Below, piece after piece: positions 46,092-58,403 of a DNA stretch of 64,000 nucleotides; position 1 is the stretch's first letter, and each line of letters starts with the position of its first letter. The position numbers were made by a program, and so were the translations under genes. The stretch lies in assembly GCA_035506535.1 (NCBI GenBank), contig DATJPE010000083.1:1-64000 (forward strand), read 5' to 3'. The notes under the pieces are model-generated. The model did no database searches. It saw nothing but the letters and a program-made list of their open reading frames with translations, and had not been told where the DNA came from. This stretch comes from Actinomycetes bacterium (lineage in GTDB: Bacteria; Actinomycetota; Actinomycetes; DATJPE01).

Positions 46092-46611
46092 GGCCCACCG
46101 GGCAGCGGTAGCGCACCTCGAGGGCGTCCTCGCCGTGGACCGTGGGCAGCCCGTCGAGGACCCGCTCCGCGCCGTCGGGCGCGAACCCACGGCGGCGATA
46201 GAAGGTGTCGGCGCGGTCGTTGCCGACCAGTGCCCAGAGCCGGACCTCGGTGACGCCGCGCGCCTCGAGGTCGGCGGCGGCGACCGCCAGCAGGGCGCTC
46301 CCGTCGCCGAGGCCCCAGCGGTGCGGCAGGACGTACACCGCGTAGATCTCCGCCCGCGACTCCCCGTCGTCGTCGCGGTCCGGACCGTACGCGCAGAAGC
46401 CGGTGAGCGAGCCGTCCGCGGCACTGACCAGGGTGTGCGTGTCGCCGTGCTCGGCGAGGCGCGCCAGCCACCGCTCGGTGTCGGCGGCCTCGTCCATGGC
46501 GTCGAGGACCGAGTCCGCGAGCAGCCCTCGGTAGGCGCCGCGCCAGCTGCTGATCCGGATCCGAGCCACCGCGGCGGCGTCGGACACGGTCGCGGCACGC
46601 ACGTGGGTCAT
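46078..46611 (-). CDS. GNAT family N-acetyltransferase
   Basis: ATG 46611 overlaps the lhr stop (ATGA) and gives 177 residues. VRAATVSDAAAVARIRISSW begins the GNAT fold. AEIYAVYVLPHRWGLGDGSALL is the acetyl-CoA strand-loop-helix, and WALVGNDRADTFYRRRGFAP the C-terminal motif. The acceptor is unknown. Location between lhr and nei suggests co-expression with repair functions, which may be incidental. Its end overlaps the nei start by 14 bases in a different frame. Confidence 0.88.
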   Translation of the reverse strand: MTHVRAATVSDAAAVARIRISSWRGAYRGLLADSVLDAMDEAADTERWLARLAEHGDTHTLVSAADGSLTGFCAYGPDRDDDGESRAEIYAVYVLPHRWGLGDGSALLAVAAADLEARGVTEVRLWALVGNDRADTFYRRRGFAPDGAERVLDGLPTVHGEDALEVRYRCPVGRARR

Positions 46612-49600
46612 GCCCGAAGTCTGAGCCCGCGCGGCGTCGCGTGGAACCCGGCCCGCTCGAGCGCCTGGGCCAGGGCGGTATCGCCCCCCAGCACAGTGCT
46701 GCCGTCGGCGCGCTCCACCGCGAGACGGCCGAGCTGGCCCTCGCGCACCGCGAGGGCCAGGGCGTCGACGGCCGGCTGAAGGACGCCGGGGTCCTCCGAC
46801 CACGTGAGCAGGGACCGCCCGCCGCGCTCGACGTAGAGGACGAGCTCCCCGTCGTGGAGCACCACCAGCGCGCCCGCCTTGCGCCCAGGCTTGTGCCCGG
46901 AGGCCACCTCCTCGGGACGCTCGGGCCACGGCAGGGCCGCGCCGTAGGCGTTGGCGGGGTCGGTGGCCGCCAGGACGAGGGCGCCGACAGGCTCACGACG
47001 TTGGCTGGGAGCGGGCGCGTACGTGCGCAGCCGATCGACGGCCCCAGGCACGAAGAACTGCGCGGCGCCGAGGCCCTCGACCGCATAGCCGCGCCGAGCC
47101 CGGCCGGCCTCCTCGAAGGCGGCCAGCACTCGATAGACGGCGGCGAACCCGCCCGGGGCCCGCTCGGCGGCGACGGCCCCGCGGGTGACGACGCCGTGCC
47201 GGTCGAGCAGGGTCTCGGCGAGGGCGTGGCCGCGACGGGTCGGGTCGGCGTCGCGGTCGGGGAGCAGAGACCAGCGTCCGGAGGCGCTGGGTGGCCCGCT
47301 GCGGGCCGGCATCGCGGGGCGGCGCACGTGTCCGTAGCGCGACCGGGGCGGGCTCGGCCGCGCGCGGTGCGTGCCGCGGCCGCCGGAGACGAGGGCGCGG
47401 ACCGGCCCGAGGGTGTCGTTGGTGATCTGGCCCGACCACACCAGGTCCCACAGCACGGCGAGCAGCTCGGTGTCGTCGAGGGAGCCGACGCGGTCGGAGA
47501 GAGTACGGAAGAACAGCGCGGCCCCGTCGGCGAGCGCGGCCACGACCGCGGCGTGCAACGGGGTCGTCGTGGCCCCGGCGTCGAGCAGCGGCAGGGTCAG
47601 CGGCGCGCTCTCGGCGAGGTGCAGGGACAGCCAGCCGTCGTCCCCGGGCAGCGGGCCGTGCCCGCACCAGAGCACCTCGCCGGACGCCGTCAGCTCGTCG
47701 AGCAGGGCGGGTGCGTAGTCGCGGACCCGGGCGGGCAGGACGAGCCGCTCGAGCGCGGAGGCCGGCACCGGCGCGCCCTGCAGCTGCTCGACGACGCGCA
47801 GAAGCCCCTCCGCCCCGCGCAGCGGGCTGGTCACCTGCTGCCAGGCGGGCAGGAACCGGGCGAGGGCCACCGGCGGTACGGGCTCCGCCTCGTGCCGCAG
47901 CGCCGCCATCGACCGTCGCCGCAGCAGCCGCAGCACCTGCGCGTCGCACCACTCGGTGCCGACGCCGCCGGGCCGCAGCTCCCCCTCGACCACCCGTCCG
48001 GCGCCGAGCAGGCGCTGCAGGGCGGCGTGGACGACGGCGGGTCCCAGGCCCAGAGCGGCGGCCAGCTCACCGGTGGTGAAGGGCCCGTGGGTGCGCGCGT
48101 AGCGGGCCACCAGGTCGCCGACCGGGTCGGCGACCGGCTCCAGGAAGGCCTCGGGAACCCCGACCGGTAGGGCGACCCCCAGGGCGTCGCGCAGTCGGCC
48201 GGCGTCCTCGACGGCGGCCCAGCGCTCCTCACCGGCCAGACGTACCCGGATCACCCTGCGCGCGCCCTCGAGCTCGACCAGCCACGCTGGCTCCACCCCC
48301 CGGGCTCTCGCCTCGGTGGTCGACAGCGGCCCAAGCAGGCGCAGCAGGTCTGCCGCGTCCTCGGCGTCGCGCGCGCGGCGTCCCTCCGATCGGCGCTGCA
48401 GGTCGGCCTCGACCTCGGCGAGCGCGGTCTCGTCGAGCAACTCGCGCAGCTCGGCCTGCCCCAGCAGCTCGGCGAGCAGCCCGGTGTCGAGCGCGAGCGC
48501 GGCGGCCCGGCGCTCCGCGAGCGGGGAGTCGCCCTCGTAGAGGAACTGTGCGACGTAGCCGAACAGCAGCGAGCGGGCGAAGGGGCTGGGCTGGGCGGTC
48601 TCGACCTCGACGAGGCGTACCGTCCGCGCGTCCAGGTCGCGCATGAGCGCTGTCAGCCCCGGTACGTCGAAGACGTCCTGCAGGCACTCGCGCATCGTCT
48701 CCAGCACGATCGGGAACGAGCCGTACTCGCTGGCCACCGAGAGGAGCTGAGCGGCGCGCTGCCGCTGCTGCCACAGCGGTGTCCGGCGGTCCGGCCGACG
48801 ACGGGGGAGCAGCAGCGCCCGCGCCGCGCACTCCCGGAACCGGGCCGCGAAGAGCGCGGACCCGCCGACCTCGGCAGTGACGGTCGGCTCCACGTCGGCG
48901 GGGTCGAGCGCGACCAGCGAGGCGACGTCGGAGGCCTCGAGCAGGTCGCTCTCGGGGAGGCGTAGGACGATCCCGTCGTCGGCGTGCATCGCCTGGACGT
49001 CGACCCCGAAGCGCTCGCGGAACCGGGCGGCCAGCGCCAGGGACCACGGCGCGTGCACGGGAGCGCCGAAGGGCGAGTGGACGACGACGCGCCAGTCGCC
49101 CAGCTCGTCGCGGAAGCGCTCGACCACGATCGTGCGGTCGTCGGGCAGGTGTCCGGTGGCCTGCTGCTGCTCGCGCAGGTAGCTCGTGAGGTTGTCCGCC
49201 GCCCACTCGTCCAGCCCGGCCGCTCGTGCGCGGGCCCTCGCGTGCTCGTCGTCGAGGGCCGCCGTGGTCCGAACGAACGCCCCGACCGCGCGCCCGAGCT
49301 CGGCAGGTCGCCCGGGGCTGTCGCCCTTCCAGAAGGGAAGGCGCCCCGGCTGCCCCGGCGCGGGCGACACGAGCACCCGGTCGTGGGTGATGTCCTCGAT
49401 GCGCCACGACGTCGAGCCGAGGGTGAACACGTCGCCCACGCGCGACTCGTAGACCATCTCCTCGTCGAGCTCTCCGACCCGGGACGCCCGTTCGCCGACC
49501 AGGAACACCCCGAACAGGCCGCGGTCGGGGATCGTGCCGCCGCTGGTCACGGCCAGCCGCTGGGCACCCGGGCGGGCGGTCAGCGTCCCGCTGACCCGGT

Positions 49601-51317
49601 CCCAGACGATGCGCGGGCGCAGCTCGGCGAAGGCGTCGCTCGGGTAACGCCCGGCGAGCATGTCGAGCACGGCGTCGTACGCGCTCTGCGGCACGGTGGC
49701 GTAGGGCGCGGCGCGACGTATCAGCGTCAGCAGCTCGTCCGCCTGCCAGGCGTCCATCGCGACCATCGCCACGACCTGCTGGGCGAGAACGTCGAGGGGG
49801 TTGCGCGGGACCGACAGCGCCTCGATGCTCCCGGCCCGCATGCTCTCGGCGACGACGGCGGTCTGGACGAGGTCGCCGCGGTACTTCGGGAAGATGACGC
49901 CCTTGCTGACCGCGCCGACCTGGTGGCCTGCACGACCGATGCGCTGCAGACCGCTGGCCACGCTGGGCGGGGACTCCACCTGCACGACGAGGTCGACCGC
50001 GCCCATGTCGATGCCGAGCTCCAGGCTGCTCGTCGCGACGACCGCCGGCAGCCGGCCGGCCTTCAGGTCCTCCTCGACCAGGCGACGCTGCTCCTTGCTC
50101 ACGCTGCCGTGGTGCGCCCGGGCGACCTCGAGAGAGGCGCCGTACGTCTGGCCGGACTGGGCCATCACCTGCGCCGGGGGGCCGCCGCCGCGCCCTGGCC
50201 GGCCTCCTCCGCGCCCGGTTCCGCTGGTCGCGCTCGGCTCCTCGCTCGTGCCTCGCTGGTCACCGAGCCGCTGCGGGCTCCTGGTCGCGCTCGGCTCCTC
50301 GCTCGTGCCTCGCTCGTCACCGAGCCGCTGCGCGTGCAGCTCGTTGAGGCGCGCGCACAGCCGCTCGGCGAGGCGGCGGGAGTTGGCGAACACGATCGTG
50401 GAGCGGTGCGCCTCGACGAGGTCGAGCACCCGCTCCTCGACGTGCGGCCAGATGCTGGCGCGCTGCTCCTCGCCCGCCGCCGATCCGTGGACCTCGCCGG
50501 TGGGCGTACCGAGCTCGGCCAGGTCGGGGACGGGGACCACGACCTCGAGCTCGATCGTCTTGGCCGACGGCGGCTGCACGACCTCGACCGGCCGGGTCGC
50601 CGACAGCCAGCGGGCGACCTCCTCCACCGGTCGTACCGTCGCGGACAGCCCGATCCGTCGGGCCGGCCGCTCGAGCAGGGCGTCGAGACGCTCGAGGCTG
50701 ATCGCCAGGTGCGCGCCCCGCTTGGTCCCCGCCAGGGCGTGCACCTCGTCGACGATGACGGTCTCCACCCCCCGCAGCGACTCGCGCGAGGCCGACGTGA
50801 GGATCAGGAACAGCGACTCGGGCGTGGTGATGAGGATGTCGGGGGGCTTGCTCGCGAAGCGCCGACGCTCCTCGGCGGGGGTGTCCCCGGTACGGATCGC
50901 GACGCTGATGTCGGGCTCCGGCAGGCCGAGCCGGTGCGCCGCCTGGCGGATGCCCGTGAGCGGGCTGCGCAGGTTGCGCTCGACGTCGACGGCGAGGGCC
51001 TTGAGCGGGGAGACGTACAGCACCCGGCAACGCCGCTGGGGCTCGGCGGGTGCCGGTTCGGCGGCCAGCCGGTCGAGGGACCACAGGAAGGCCGCCAGGG
51101 TCTTGCCGGAGCCGGTGGGGGCCACGACGAGCGCGTCGCGTCCCGCGTCGATCGCGGCCCACGCCCCGGCCTGGGCCGGCGTCGGCCCCTCGAAGGCCCC
51201 GTTGAACCACGCCCTGGTGGCGGCCGAGAACCCGCCCAGCGGTTCACGGCGCGCTGCGGGACCCTCAGCGGGCGGGGGCGGCGGGCCGGCGGGCGTACTG
51301 GGGGGCGAGGAGGCCAT
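46608..51317 (-). CDS. lhr: Lhr-type large helicase
   Basis: This 1569-residue protein has full Lhr length. Walker A is APTGSGKT near residues 66-73, DEVH lies near 188 and SAT near 220. LELGIDMGAVDLVVQVESPP, QRIGRAGHQVG and ARAHHGSVSKEQR are later helicase motifs. A winged-helix and a large Lhr C-terminal region follow. Lhr helicases act 3' to 5' in DNA repair. Residues ~329-365 are an inserted repeat (GDERGTSEEPSATR twice) plus a Gly/Arg/Pro-rich stretch not expected in the core. It is coupled to the GNAT gene by ATGA. Confidence 0.93.
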   Translation of the reverse strand: MASSPPSTPAGPPPPPAEGPAARREPLGGFSAATRAWFNGAFEGPTPAQAGAWAAIDAGRDALVVAPTGSGKTLAAFLWSLDRLAAEPAPAEPQRRCRVLYVSPLKALAVDVERNLRSPLTGIRQAAHRLGLPEPDISVAIRTGDTPAEERRRFASKPPDILITTPESLFLILTSASRESLRGVETVIVDEVHALAGTKRGAHLAISLERLDALLERPARRIGLSATVRPVEEVARWLSATRPVEVVQPPSAKTIELEVVVPVPDLAELGTPTGEVHGSAAGEEQRASIWPHVEERVLDLVEAHRSTIVFANSRRLAERLCARLNELHAQRLGDERGTSEEPSATRSPQRLGDQRGTSEEPSATSGTGRGGGRPGRGGGPPAQVMAQSGQTYGASLEVARAHHGSVSKEQRRLVEEDLKAGRLPAVVATSSLELGIDMGAVDLVVQVESPPSVASGLQRIGRAGHQVGAVSKGVIFPKYRGDLVQTAVVAESMRAGSIEALSVPRNPLDVLAQQVVAMVAMDAWQADELLTLIRRAAPYATVPQSAYDAVLDMLAGRYPSDAFAELRPRIVWDRVSGTLTARPGAQRLAVTSGGTIPDRGLFGVFLVGERASRVGELDEEMVYESRVGDVFTLGSTSWRIEDITHDRVLVSPAPGQPGRLPFWKGDSPGRPAELGRAVGAFVRTTAALDDEHARARARAAGLDEWAADNLTSYLREQQQATGHLPDDRTIVVERFRDELGDWRVVVHSPFGAPVHAPWSLALAARFRERFGVDVQAMHADDGIVLRLPESDLLEASDVASLVALDPADVEPTVTAEVGGSALFAARFRECAARALLLPRRRPDRRTPLWQQRQRAAQLLSVASEYGSFPIVLETMRECLQDVFDVPGLTALMRDLDARTVRLVEVETAQPSPFARSLLFGYVAQFLYEGDSPLAERRAAALALDTGLLAELLGQAELRELLDETALAEVEADLQRRSEGRRARDAEDAADLLRLLGPLSTTEARARGVEPAWLVELEGARRVIRVRLAGEERWAAVEDAGRLRDALGVALPVGVPEAFLEPVADPVGDLVARYARTHGPFTTGELAAALGLGPAVVHAALQRLLGAGRVVEGELRPGGVGTEWCDAQVLRLLRRRSMAALRHEAEPVPPVALARFLPAWQQVTSPLRGAEGLLRVVEQLQGAPVPASALERLVLPARVRDYAPALLDELTASGEVLWCGHGPLPGDDGWLSLHLAESAPLTLPLLDAGATTTPLHAAVVAALADGAALFFRTLSDRVGSLDDTELLAVLWDLVWSGQITNDTLGPVRALVSGGRGTHRARPSPPRSRYGHVRRPAMPARSGPPSASGRWSLLPDRDADPTRRGHALAETLLDRHGVVTRGAVAAERAPGGFAAVYRVLAAFEEAGRARRGYAVEGLGAAQFFVPGAVDRLRTYAPAPSQRREPVGALVLAATDPANAYGAALPWPERPEEVASGHKPGRKAGALVVLHDGELVLYVERGGRSLLTWSEDPGVLQPAVDALALAVREGQLGRLAVERADGSTVLGGDTALAQALERAGFHATPRGLRLRA
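50224..50332 (-). repeat. 52-bp unit repeated in tandem inside lhr
   Basis: Bases 50224-50275 and 50281-50332 are identical except one position, with a period of 57 bases. On the coding strand each reads RLGDERGTSEEPSAT or RLGDQRGTSEEPSAT. The length preserves the lhr frame. Confidence 0.92.
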
Positions 51318-51510: not shown

Positions 51511-52575
51511 TCAGACGGTGACGAGGGCGTAGTGGAGGCCGCCGTCCTTGGAGACGAGGAGCTTGCCGGAGTCCGTGACGGCGAAGCCGACGCTCGGGCT
51601 GGTGTACCCGATGAACCCGAACGTCGTGCCGGCCGGCAGCGACGGTACGTGCGCCACGGCGACGTGACCGCTCGTCGAGACCCGGCGCAGTTTCCCGGAA
51701 CCCTGCGCCGAGACCGCCGCGTGCGTCGCGTCGATCCCGCCGACCGCGATCCGTGACGCCGAGGCCGCGACCGCCGGCCCGGCGTGCCAGCCCACGCCGC
51801 CGCCGGGGGAGTAGCCGTAGGCGTCGGCCGTCCCGGTCGGGCAGTCGACCCACGTCGTGCCGTGCGAGGAGGACACCTGGCCGAAGCCGAGCGAGGCGTC
51901 GCACCAGGACGGGCCGTTGCTCGCCGTGAAGCCGGCGGCGCTGACGACGTACGCCCGGACGTGCAGGTCCGACGGCCGGAACGACAGCACCTCCGCGCGC
52001 CCGGCGCTGAGCGCGACGAGCGCCGGTGAGCCCTCGACCGTGACGGTCGGTACGTCGAGGCGGCGCGCGAAGGCACCCGCCGAAGTGGCCGTGGCCGATG
52101 CCGACCACGCACGGACCCGCCCGCTCGCGCGGCCGGCGACCCAGACGCGCCCGCCGCCGACGTCCATGACGGACAGCCGCTGCGCGAGCGGTACCCGCCG
52201 CCACGTCCATCCCGCGTTCGACGTGCGCCACAGCTGGTAGCCGACGGCTCGGCCGGGCGCCAGGATCCAGCCGTGCACGCCGTCGGCGGCCATCCGAAGC
52301 GTGGTGGCCCTTCGCGGGGTGCCACCCACGTGCGCCGAGGTCTTCTCCAGGCTGAAGCTGACCCCGCCGTTGGTGGTGTGCGCGATCGCGTTGCAGCGGT
52401 GGGCGCCGCACGGGACGCTGCCCAGCACCCACCACTGGCTCGCCGAGATCGCGCTCACCTGCTGGGCGCGAAAGCCGGCAGGGACCGGGTCGAGTCCCGC
52501 GTGCGCGCTGACGGCCGGCAGGACCGCCAGCCCCAGCGCCGCTGCCCCTGCCGTCGCCATGGTCCGTCTACGCAT
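51511..52575 (-). CDS. secreted beta-propeller (BNR-like) protein
   Basis: ATG 52575 follows GGAGGA and gives 354 residues. MRRRTMATAGAAALGLAVLP plus AVSAHA is a Sec signal peptide. The mature part has Asp-box-like repeats (HTTNGGVSF, RTSNAGWTW, VSKDGGLHY), as in BNR/Vps10-type propellers. It is paralogous to the extracellular part of the anti-sigma-like protein encoded next to it: ISASQWWVLG versus IDDRHWWVAA, GIDATHAAVS versus AIDATHAVIS, and near-identical C-termini. A role as an envelope sensor or decoy for the sigma system is inferred. Confidence 0.78.
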   Translation of the reverse strand: MRRRTMATAGAAALGLAVLPAVSAHAGLDPVPAGFRAQQVSAISASQWWVLGSVPCGAHRCNAIAHTTNGGVSFSLEKTSAHVGGTPRRATTLRMAADGVHGWILAPGRAVGYQLWRTSNAGWTWRRVPLAQRLSVMDVGGGRVWVAGRASGRVRAWSASATATSAGAFARRLDVPTVTVEGSPALVALSAGRAEVLSFRPSDLHVRAYVVSAAGFTASNGPSWCDASLGFGQVSSSHGTTWVDCPTGTADAYGYSPGGGVGWHAGPAVAASASRIAVGGIDATHAAVSAQGSGKLRRVSTSGHVAVAHVPSLPAGTTFGFIGYTSPSVGFAVTDSGKLLVSKDGGLHYALVTV

Positions 52576-52745
52576 CACACGTCCTCCTGCTCGTGTCCCC
52601 GCCTCGGTCCCAGCGATCGTGAGTGATCCAGGGCCGGTACGGCGTGTCGAAGTGCACCTGTCAAAGATCGCGCGAGTGCGGCGCTGATACATCGCATCGT
52701 CGTACGCCCTGCCGCGGGCGGGCGGAGTGACGCGTCGAGGACGCC

Positions 52746-54017
52746 TCATCGGGAGAACGTCACCGCGATCCACGAGTGCCCACCGTCCGTGCTCCGCAGC
52801 AGCTGGCCCTTGCCCGTGATGGCGAAGCCGTGGGTCGCGTTGGTGAACCCGAGGTAGCGCCACCCGCCGCTCACCCCGTTCACGTGCACCTCACGCTCCA
52901 GGGTGCCGTTCGCGTCGACGACGGCCAGCGCGGTGTCCGACGTACTGATCACCGCGTGCGTCGCGTCGATCGCGCCTACCGTGTGCCGCCCGGCCGGACC
53001 CTGGACCGGCACCGACTGCCATGTCGTGCCGAGGTCGGTCGAGCGCAGGACGGCGTCGGCGGTCCCGGTCGGGCACGACAGCCACACGCCGCCACGCCCA
53101 CCAGACAGCGACGAGAGCCCGAGCGTGACGTCGCACCCGGTCACGGGGTGCGTGCCGGTGGTCTTGCCGTCGCTGTCGTAGCTCGCCGACACCACCGCGT
53201 TCGCGTTGCGCCACACCACGACGGCCCGGTCGCCCTGGACGGCGAGCTGTATGTTCGCCGCACCCGACGTCGCCGTTCCGGGGATCGTGGCGACGTCTCG
53301 CCACGACCCCGAACCCGCCTGGCGCCACAGGTGGATCGAGGAGTCGGTGGCCTGCTGGAGGGCGTACGTCGTCGTCGATCCGCCCGCCTCGAGCGCGAAG
53401 TAGCCCTTGACAGGACCGATGTCGCGCAGGGTCTGTCCCCCGTCAGCAGTGGTCGCCAGGGTGCCGTCCTGCGTCATGACGGTGCCGTGCGTGCTGTCGA
53501 CGAAGCGAACGCCCGCAAGGCGATTCGGGAGGGTGACGTTCGACGCGGGAGCGAAGGTCGCCCCGCCGTCGCTCGTCGTCACCAGCGCGCCGCCACAGCC
53601 GGTGCACGACCGGTTCGCCGCGACCCACCAGTGCCGGTCGTCGATGGCCGACACCGAGGCGGTGTCGGTGAGGTCGGCCAGAGACGTGCCGCCCGTGGTC
53701 GCGACCGAGGACGAGGCGGGCGAGCTGGCGGGGGAGTGGTAGAGCGACGCCTGGATGCTGGAGGCCGCGGCGGTGGTCTGCGCGCCCGAGGAGCCGGGTA
53801 CGGCCTGTGGCCCGCCGCTCGCCCACGGATGGGTGATGCCCAGACCGAGTCCCACGACCGCGAGCACGGACAGCGTCGCGGCGAGCGCCTGCTTGCGGCG
53901 CCGGCGACGGTCCGCCCCCGCGTAGACGCGCTCGAGCGGCACCGAGCGGTCCGGGGGGCGGTTGCCCCGGTCGGCCAGGACCCGGCGCAGGTCGCGCTCC
54001 AGCTCCTCGTCGTTCAT
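52746..54017 (-). CDS. membrane-anchored anti-sigma-like protein with extracellular propeller
   Basis: ATG 54017 overlaps the sigma factor stop (ATGA) and gives 423 residues; GTG 54026 is an alternative start. The short cytoplasmic N-terminus (NDEELERDLRRVLADRGNRP, basic RRRRRK) is followed by one membrane helix at about 43-63. A Ser/Thr-rich linker and a propeller with Asp boxes (TTSDGGATF, RSTDLGTTW, RSTDGGHSW) follow outside. Position and topology suggest it restrains the ECF sigma factor, although no classical zinc anti-sigma motif is seen. Confidence 0.75.
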   Translation of the reverse strand: MNDEELERDLRRVLADRGNRPPDRSVPLERVYAGADRRRRRKQALAATLSVLAVVGLGLGITHPWASGGPQAVPGSSGAQTTAAASSIQASLYHSPASSPASSSVATTGGTSLADLTDTASVSAIDDRHWWVAANRSCTGCGGALVTTSDGGATFAPASNVTLPNRLAGVRFVDSTHGTVMTQDGTLATTADGGQTLRDIGPVKGYFALEAGGSTTTYALQQATDSSIHLWRQAGSGSWRDVATIPGTATSGAANIQLAVQGDRAVVVWRNANAVVSASYDSDGKTTGTHPVTGCDVTLGLSSLSGGRGGVWLSCPTGTADAVLRSTDLGTTWQSVPVQGPAGRHTVGAIDATHAVISTSDTALAVVDANGTLEREVHVNGVSGGWRYLGFTNATHGFAITGKGQLLRSTDGGHSWIAVTFSR

Positions 54018-54559
54018 GTCGACCACGTCCCCTCCTGCTGCTGGGCGGCGAGCTTTTCGCGTAGCCGTACCAGCGCCCGTGACGTCGTGCTCTTCACCGT
54101 CCCGACCGAGCACCCCAGCACCTCGGCCGTCTGCGCCTCGCCGAGGTCCTCGTAGAAGCGCAGCACCAGCACCGCGCGCATCCGCGGCGGGAGCTCGCCG
54201 AGGGTCGACCACAGGGCCGCGTCGTGCGGGTCGGACGGGACGTAGGCCGTGTCCGGCACCTGGTCGGTGACGTGCTCACGACGCATCCGGCGCCAGACGC
54301 TGACGTTGCGGTGCACGATGGCGCGGCGCACGTACCCCTCGGGATCGTCCTTGCGCACGACCCTCGGCCACGCCGCGACCGTGCGTTCCAGCGCGTCCTG
54401 CACGAGGTCGGCGGCCTTGTCGCGATCACCCGTGAGCACGTAGGCGAACCGCAGGAGTGCGGGCGTGCGGGCGCGCGCGAAGGCATCGAAGGCCTCGCGG
54501 TCGGCCGCGTCCACGTCCTCGAGTCTCCCGCTGGTGGCTCGTATTGCGGTGTCGGTCAT
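54014..54559 (-). CDS. SigE-family ECF RNA polymerase sigma factor
   Basis: ATG 54559 gives 181 residues. Region 2 covers about 24-95, with ARTPALLRFAYVLTGDRDKA and DLVQDALERTVAAWPRV. Region 4 covers about 120-175, with ELPPRMRAVLVLRFYEDLGE and VLGCSVGTVKSTTSRALVRL. The pattern is that of the large actinobacterial SigE-type ECF family. Its stop overlaps the start of the membrane propeller gene. A third gene, a propeller paralogue, follows. The signal and target promoters are unknown. Confidence 0.9.
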   Translation of the reverse strand: MTDTAIRATSGRLEDVDAADREAFDAFARARTPALLRFAYVLTGDRDKAADLVQDALERTVAAWPRVVRKDDPEGYVRRAIVHRNVSVWRRMRREHVTDQVPDTAYVPSDPHDAALWSTLGELPPRMRAVLVLRFYEDLGEAQTAEVLGCSVGTVKSTTSRALVRLREKLAAQQQEGTWST

Positions 54560-54670
54560 GGCTTCACCGTCGTGTCGTCCGGTTGTCCGAACCCAGGACG
54601 CGCAACCGGTGACGGGGGTTGCGCGTCTCCGAGTCATGGTTGTGGAGGCCGGGTACGCCGCGGCGGCGGG

Positions 54671-56255: not shown

Positions 56256-58403
56256 ATGCCAGCACCCGCCGATCGCGAGAAGGCCCTCGACCTGGCGCTC
56301 GCGCAGATCGAACGCGCCCACGGCAAGGGCGCGGTCATGCGCCTCGGCGACGAGGCGCGAGCACCCATCGACGTGATCCCGACCGGCTCGATCGCCCTCG
56401 ACGTGGCCCTCGGCATCGGCGGCCTGCCGCGCGGCCGGATCGTGGAGATCTACGGACCCGAGAGCAGCGGGAAGACTAGCTTGGCGCTGCACGCGGTCGC
56501 CAGCGCCCAGCGAGCCGGCGGCATCGCCGCGTTCATCGACGCCGAGCACGCTCTCGACCCGGACTACGCCCGCAAGCTGGGTGTCGACACCGACGCGCTG
56601 CTCGTCTCCCAGCCGGACACCGGCGAGCAGGCGCTGGAGATCATGGACATGCTCATCCGCTCCGGCGCGATCGACGTCATCGTCATCGACTCCGTCGCGG
56701 CCCTGGTCCCGCGCGCGGAGATCGAGGGCGAGATGGGCGACAGCCACGTCGGACTGCAGGCCCGACTGATGTCCCAGGCCATGCGCAAGATCACCGGTGC
56801 CCTGAGCCAGTCGAACACCACGGCGATCTTCATCAACCAGCTGCGGGAGAAGGTCGGAGTGTTCTTCGGCTGCTTCTCCTACACGACGCGGGTCACCCTC
56901 GCCGACGGCACCCAGGAGAAGATCGGCAAGATCGTCAACCAGAAGATGGACGTCGAGGTGCTCTCCTATGACCCGGAGACGAACCGGGTCGTGCCGCGGC
57001 GCATCGTGAACTGGTTCGACAACGGCCCGGTCGAGGAGTTCCTGCAGTTCACGGTGGCCAAGTCCGGGCGCAACGGGCGGCGCGCCCAGTTCTCGGCGAC
57101 CGCCAACCACTTGATCCGCACGCCTGGGGGGTGGCGGGAGGCCGGCGAGCTGCTGGCCGGGGACCGGGTCATGGTCGCCGAGGACCGGAAGCTGAGCGAC
57201 CTGCAGTGGCAGCTGGTCCTCGGCAGCCTCATGGGCGATGGTGCGCTGTCTCCCAACACCCGGGGCCGCTCCGGAACACGCTTCCGGATGAGTCACGGAC
57301 CCAAGCAGCACGCCTACCTGGACTGGAAGGCGTCGTTGCTGGGCAACATCCAGCAGTCGCGGTCCGAGAACGCCGCCGGGGCCGCGTTCGTCGATCTGAC
57401 CCCCCTGCCCGAGCTGGCTGAGCTGCGGCGAGCGGTCTATTTCGACGGTCGCAAGGTCCTGTCCTGGGACTACCTGAAGGCGCTGACCCCGTTCGCGCTG
57501 GCGATCTGGTACATGGACGACGGAACGTTCGCCCTGCGGGCCAAGGGGCTGCAGGAACGCACCCGCGACGGCAGCGGGAGAGTCGAGATCTGCATCGACG
57601 CGCTCACCCCGGACTCACGCCAACGGCTGTTGGATCACCTCGCGGGAGCCTTCGACCTCCATCCGAAGCTGATCCAACGCGGTCCGCGCCAGCAGAACGT
57701 GCTCGTCTTCCCGAAGGACGAGACGACGAAGCTGCACGAGATTGTCGCGCCCTATGTCCACCCGTCGATGGACTACAAGCTGCTTCCTCGGTTGCGCGGC
57801 CGGTTCTTGGTGACGCCGGAGTTCGTCGAGCCGGAGGCCACTCTCGTGCCCGCGGAGATCCTCGACATCCACGTCAAGCCCCGGTTGCGCACGATGCATC
57901 GGTTCGACATCGAGGTGGAGGGCAACCACAACTACTTCGTCGACGGCGTCATGGTCCACAACAGCCCCGAGACGACCACGGGTGGCAAGGCCCTGAAGTT
58001 CTACGCGTCGGTGCGTTTGGACGTCCGGCGGATCGAGACGCTCAAGGACGGCCAGGACGCGGTGGGCAACCGGACCCGGGTCAAGGTCGTCAAGAACAAG
58101 CTGGCCGCGCCGTTCAAGCAGGCCGAGTTCGACATCCTCTACGGCCAGGGCATCTCCCGTGAGGGCAGCCTGATCGACATGGGCGTCGACAACGGCATCG
58201 TGCGCAAGAGCGGCGCCTGGTACACCTACGACGGCGACCAGCTCGGCCAGGGCAAGGAGAACGCCCGCGCGTTCCTGCGCGACAACCCCGACCTCGCCGA
58301 CGAGATCGAGAAGCGCATCAAGGAGAAGCTGGGGATCGGCCCCACCGTCGACGCGCCCGCCGCCGAAGCGCCGCTGGCCCCGGTGGTCCCGATCGACGAG
58401 TAG
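56256..58403 (+). CDS. recA: RecA recombinase precursor with intein
   Basis: The frame encodes 715 residues, but 206-569 are an intein, leaving a normal 351-residue RecA. AGGAG precedes ATG 56256 by eight bases. Extein motifs are [13 protein letters not shown] (Walker A), [20 protein letters not shown] and [18 protein letters not shown] before the intein, then [18 protein letters not shown] after it. RecA drives strand exchange and LexA self-cleavage. It is controlled by a LexA box and a damage promoter upstream and followed by recX. Activity needs protein splicing. Confidence 0.97.
56871..57962 (+). mobile_element. RecA intein with LAGLIDADG endonuclease
   Basis: The intein is 364 residues, from Cys206 ([13 protein letters not shown]) to Asn569 (GVMVHN), with Ser570 as the first C-extein residue. 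Splicing block B has TANHLI near 282-287, with its His. Block F is [15 protein letters not shown] near 550. Endonuclease blocks [10 protein letters not shown] (about 322) and [11 protein letters not shown] (about 415) are LAGLIDADG motifs with intact acidic residues. The insertion between FFG and SPET is the site used by the Mycobacterium leprae RecA intein, not that of M. tuberculosis. Confidence 0.95.

Follow-up and report, generated by a model that had tools for sequence, protein, structure and literature searches.

A SigE-family ECF sigma factor gene followed by genes for an anchored and a secreted predicted YCF48-like propeller in an actinomycete genome

The window, as the 64,000-nucleotide stretch of DNA analysed here is called, includes a set of three minus-strand genes coding for a sigma factor, an anchored propeller protein and a secreted propeller protein, with recA on one side of the set and lhr on the other. 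The genes span positions 51511-54559 of the window, and both ends of this span, as given in the first-pass annotation, match the correct genes. That annotation had also noticed that the genes for the sigma factor and the membrane protein overlap by ATGA, and the overlap was located at 54017-54014 (Table 1). On the recA side, the RecA reading frame (56256-58403) codes for 715 aa, including a long, intein-like insert; RecA frames of similar length are found at loci L023 (genome G073) and L141. On the other side, the lhr-type helicase gene (46608-51317) contains an in-frame near-repeat, QRLGDERGTSEEPSAT / QRLGDQRGTSEEPSAT.

Table 1. Features of the three-gene locus, in window coordinates.
Feature	Position	Strand	Remarks
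SigE-family ECF sigma factor	54559-54014	(-)	181 aa
Anti-sigma-like membrane protein, C-terminal propeller	54017-52746	(-)	423 aa; ATG within the sigma stop
Cytoplasmic segment, residues 1-43	54017..53889	(-)	helix 3-15; first part of helix 28-55 (AlphaFold)
Single transmembrane helix, ~residues 44-61	53888..53835	(-)	hydropathy; helix 28-55 runs into it (AlphaFold)
Ser/Ala/Thr/Pro-rich extracellular linker, residues 62-112	53834..53682	(-)	mostly pLDDT <50
YCF48-like beta-propeller sensor (predicted), residues 113-422	53681..52752	(-)	AlphaFold, PDB fold search, four Asp boxes
Free secreted propeller	52575-51511	(-)	354 aa; signal peptide; propeller from ~residue 32
Predicted sigma-dependent promoter of the sigma operon, GCAACC-N16-CGTC	54622-54597	(-)	motif from related loci
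Mirror-image motif copy facing a DUF3046-like gene	54602..54627	(+)	inverted repeat, arms GACGCGCAACC / GGTTGCGCGTC

The sigma factor scored 171.5 bits against TIGR02983, above the NCBIfam cutoff of 141.55, which places it in the SigE family. Its Pfam domains, Sigma70_r2 and Sigma70_r4_2, correspond to the sigma2 and sigma4 regions that are the only ones present in ECF factors, and the promoter sequence predicted before its own gene has the AAC-type -35 and CGT-type -10 motifs expected of this group. The true start may be the GTG at residue 16, since the relatives of this sigma factor begin at the equivalent position.

The AlphaFold model of the membrane protein (mean pLDDT 81) consists of a confident all-beta domain from residue 113 to about 421 behind a disordered linker. 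The protein scored 31.5 bits against PF14870 (cutoff 27) and is a member of the YCF48/BNR propeller family, and YCF48 was the top match of its propeller in the PDB fold search. Four intact Asp boxes, at residues 148, 190, 326 and 409, agree with the extracellular Asp-box propeller that had been read at the end of this protein. On the cytoplasmic side, the 43-residue segment has no HxxxCxxC, in line with the zinc motif reported missing by the first-pass annotation, and Pfam returned no anti-sigma domain in residues 1-43. At only about 43 residues the segment falls outside the class I anti-sigma domains, which occur with or without HxxxCxxC and measure about 100 aa, the published set having a minimum of 50 aa (PMC7406223). 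Class II (CnrY-like) anti-sigma domains are made of two helices that embrace sigma2 and sigma4. Two helices are also predicted within residues 1-43, which we presume to be a short anti-sigma domain; a two-helix, class II-like mode of sigma binding would be plausible.

The secreted protein starts with a signal peptide (MRRRT...VSAHA|G, read off the sequence) that has no lipobox. Its AlphaFold model is a confident all-beta propeller, and the best PDB match was again YCF48 (TM ~0.65 by target length). While the fold matches, the score against PF14870 was 13.7 bits, below the cutoff of 27, and the Asp-box pattern used for the anchored copy found one intact box (residue 342) and two others with N in place of D. 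Aligned over 316 aa, the two propellers are 28% identical (single-comparison E 1e-21), so that the likeness along the whole length seen at first pass was borne out. Structure prediction of both propellers, proposed there as a check, gave an all-beta propeller-like domain for each protein. Four cysteines stand at matching places, 138, 141, 295 and 315 in the anchored protein and 56, 61, 225 and 245 in the secreted one.

Relatives of the locus were then sought in other genomes. Within the genus, the family and the order, the window's own genome was the only one returned, and the propeller protein gave no matches as the query against named genomes; alignment of the sigma factor then found 80 loci, and in about twenty of these the gene immediately after sigma codes for a propeller partner. 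Among 148 sampled genomes of the class, 24 had propeller-profile matches with E values no higher than 1e-12, and several of these matches are sigma partners of full length. The loci with propeller partners come from Acidothermales, Frankiales, Nocardioidaceae and Actinopolymorpha, and this recurrence of the pair answers the survey of co-occurrence that had been suggested. Many of them adjoin lhr and some also recA, and in most lhr-linked loci the reading frames of sigma and partner overlap by 4-22 bp. The three-gene observation is confirmed, and its relatives in other genomes place it beyond chance; by sequence comparison the sigma factor with a propeller partner is a common kind of cassette. 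Our literature search found no description of a cassette pairing a SigE-family sigma factor with a YCF48-like propeller partner.

The partners of related sigma factors resemble one another at the cytoplasmic end. This segment is typically about 42 aa; in the 105 called partners, a few of whose calls are incomplete, the median start of the transmembrane helix is close to residue 42. HxxxCxxC before the helix was found in none of the 105, and about half of the membrane-bound class I anti-sigma factors also lack the zinc motif (PMC7406223). The idea that the missing motif marks an uncommon cassette finds no support: among these partner sequences its absence is the rule. The short N-terminus is of the same kind behind related sigma factors, in the window's own genome and in others, while the sensor varies between a propeller, a double propeller and DUF4232. 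At locus L139 (5473-7089), linked to lhr and recA, the partner encoded behind the sigma gene has this short N-terminus too, but joined to a DUF4232 domain and with no propeller match. Double-propeller sigma partners of 747-761 aa, all from one family, are encoded at L105 (6657-8900), L107 (5065-7350) and L108 (6761-9043), in genomes G033, G010 and G051.

The sigma genes of the group also share a motif. GGCAACC-N16-GCGTC, or a sequence close to it, precedes the sigma gene at 30 of the 32 nearest loci, and the top bipartite word pair occurred at 20 of the 32 versus at most 5 in shuffled sequences. A promoter motif upstream of sigma that is common to the relatives suggests that the sigma operon is autoregulated. 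In the window, an inverted repeat (54597-54627) separates the sigma gene from the divergent DUF3046-like gene; unlike this site, the related promoter sites do not look palindromic. The regulon search used one exact motif pattern in the window's own genome and gave 39 matches versus 13 for the reversed control. Since most of these lie within coding sequence, no regulon is claimed. The best intergenic match (L233 6735-6760, G000:C23) ends some 65 bp before a gene whose product reads, from its sequence, as an MBOAT-like acyltransferase, a possible regulon member that we offer as a lead only; another gene with a hydrophobic segment comes after it.

How the secreted gene is expressed is less apparent from its surroundings. 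It lies 170 bp beyond the gene for the anchored protein, farther than tight co-expression would lead one to expect. The gap contains no terminator-like hairpin, which makes co-transcription with the sigma operon plausible. No copy of the sigma motif was present upstream of the secreted gene at up to one mismatch, and a TTGACA hexamer in the gap (52664-52659) makes a separate promoter possible.

The secreted gene is so far the unusual part of the locus. It was found in one genome only, which is also the sole representative of its order in the searches. Six-frame scans of the stretches covered gave one propeller reading frame at every sigma locus whose partner is a propeller protein, and no second, separate propeller gene was found in the related loci, some of whose contigs end soon after the partner. 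The first-pass annotation had itself said that its reading would be refuted by an N-terminal segment that does not bind sigma together with a secreted gene not conserved with the pair; the second half of this condition applies, as the related loci lack such a gene. The partner is immediately followed by lhr in G032 and at most of the lhr-linked loci; in G073 a small lipoprotein gene is located between them. In both trees the two window propellers are sisters among the anti-sigma proteins of the loci, with support of 93/90 and 96/78, values below the full (starred) level, and each of the two sits on a long end branch (1.2-1.4 changes per column). Free propellers do exist elsewhere, in G010, G022, G057, G073 and G011, mostly with lipoprotein-like N-termini; most of the stand-alone propellers at L053 (7018-7653), L054 (3-536), L055 (6990-7808), L097, L098 and L102 have lipobox-like N-termini. 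A tree in which the secreted copy joins these free propellers was rejected (p-AU 4.7e-41). A lineage-specific tandem duplication of the sensor domain is supported but not settled; it is the best reading rather than a proven one because of the long branches and the support below the starred level.

The C-terminal domain of TolB is a propeller. The closest experimental system is Tt-RpoE1/Tt-TolB of Thermoanaerobacter tengcongensis, in which residues 1-39 of Tt-TolB bind and inhibit the sigma factor Tt-RpoE1 encoded just upstream and the transmembrane helix covers residues 39-61 (PMC3397946). It shares with the window the gene order, a short cytoplasmic segment (about 39 residues in Tt-TolB), one transmembrane helix, a large C-terminal domain (annotated as TolB in Tt-TolB) and autoregulation, which is predicted for the window; the likeness of the N-termini is one of layout. 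It differs in phylum and propeller family, and a secreted sensor copy has not been described in it. By this analogy the 43-residue segment should hold the sigma factor, and the propeller should sense the outside. Other actinobacterial pairs of the SigE family (TIGR02983), whose cutoff the window's sigma factor passes, have partners with a short basic N-terminus and one transmembrane helix; their sensor domains vary, and none of the other pairs looked at had an adjacent separate secreted sensor copy. The class II anti-sigma CnrY of the CnrH system is also comparable in layout, with its short cytoplasmic segment with two predicted helices and no zinc, but CnrY works with a separate sensor, CnrX, whereas the sensor is fused to the window's membrane protein. 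The YCF48/PSII_BNR propellers share the fold, and the anchored copy passes the PF14870 cutoff; the secreted copy falls below it, and the window has no photosystem context. RsgI of Clostridium thermocellum, another anti-sigma with an extracellular part that senses outside substrates, is an analogy only, with a sigma factor of the sigma-I type and other sensor domains (PMC12203970).

Taken as a whole, the best explanation, and a reasonably probable one, is in our view that the ECF sigma factor and its anti-sigma partner form an autoregulated pair, to which this lineage has added a secreted duplicate of the sensor, co-expressed and acting in the same pathway. The sigma factor would be held inactive at the membrane by the two-helix, non-zinc N-terminus of about 43 residues of the next protein, whose propeller outside the cell would sense a ligand or the state of the envelope. 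Sensing would lead to alteration or cleavage of the partner and release of the sigma factor, which would then transcribe its own operon from the GCAACC-N16-CGTC promoter. The third gene would be a tandem duplicate of the sensor in which a signal peptide replaced the anchor and the anti-sigma segment. Its product is most likely co-expressed and part of the same pathway, where it would bind the same class of ligand or the anchored propeller. This explanation builds on the observed layout, homology, predicted folds, conserved pairing and conserved promoter motif. From them we infer sigma binding, the release mechanism, co-transcription and the role of the secreted copy. Counting against the explanation are the long branches and incomplete support of the sister placement, the length of the gap before the secreted gene, the room for a separate promoter there, the lack of a sigma-motif copy in front of it and the finding of this gene in a single genome.

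The membrane protein could instead be an activator, or an unrelated sensor that is co-transcribed and has no anti-sigma activity. The lack of a Pfam anti-sigma domain in residues 1-43, where sigma binding is presumed, would fit such a protein, but sigma and partner are repeatedly adjacent with overlapping reading frames, the N-terminus is common to the partners of several sigma factors in one genome, and Tt-TolB is a precedent for a membrane anti-sigma; we regard this reading as very improbable. The secreted propeller is harder to place. It could lie outside the switch, as a diverging duplicate that has another extracellular task or is nearing loss, with the sigma factor regulated by the anchored protein alone. 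Relatives manage without a secreted propeller, this one keeps a single intact Asp box against four in the anchored copy at an identity of only 28%, and its gene has no sigma-type promoter of its own. Against this, the gene is an intact reading frame with a signal peptide, the four matching cysteines and a confident propeller fold, and it still adjoins the operon in the same orientation, which leaves a role outside the switch a serious contender but a doubtful one.

If the secreted copy does belong to the switch, it would plausibly act as a decoy or a co-sensor. On the sequence data, competition for a ligand and binding to the anchored partner, both raised at first pass, are possible, as is a shift of the protein to a different function. 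An RseB-type co-sensor would bind and shield the anchored propeller or the linker until displaced by a ligand, with no competition for that ligand. Propellers of such fold bind peptides, YCF48 with the D1 peptide being among the best structural matches of the anchored propeller, and the double-propeller partners of one family carry two sensor propellers within one protein. Those propellers are fused, however, unlike the separate secreted copy, and the interaction between the propellers here is hypothetical; such a co-sensor seems unlikely. A broader proposal, to which we give a rather low probability, is that a tandem duplicate of the anti-sigma's own sensor has lost its anchor and become a secreted regulator, which determines the threshold at which its parent switch responds, either by taking up the ligand or by capping the anchored propeller. 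If true, it would be one of several separate doublings of this sensor family, as a secreted gene, as dispersed lipoproteins and as a double propeller in one protein.

The analysis outlines a widely conserved ECF cassette in which the gene for a SigE-family sigma factor is paired with one for a YCF48-like propeller protein, in many cases with recA and lhr on either side. Its clear promoter motif makes the regulon and the signal testable in relatives that can be cultivated, Actinopolymorpha among them. Should the secreted copy prove functional, it would be a case of the sensor domain of an anti-sigma factor reused as a soluble regulator.
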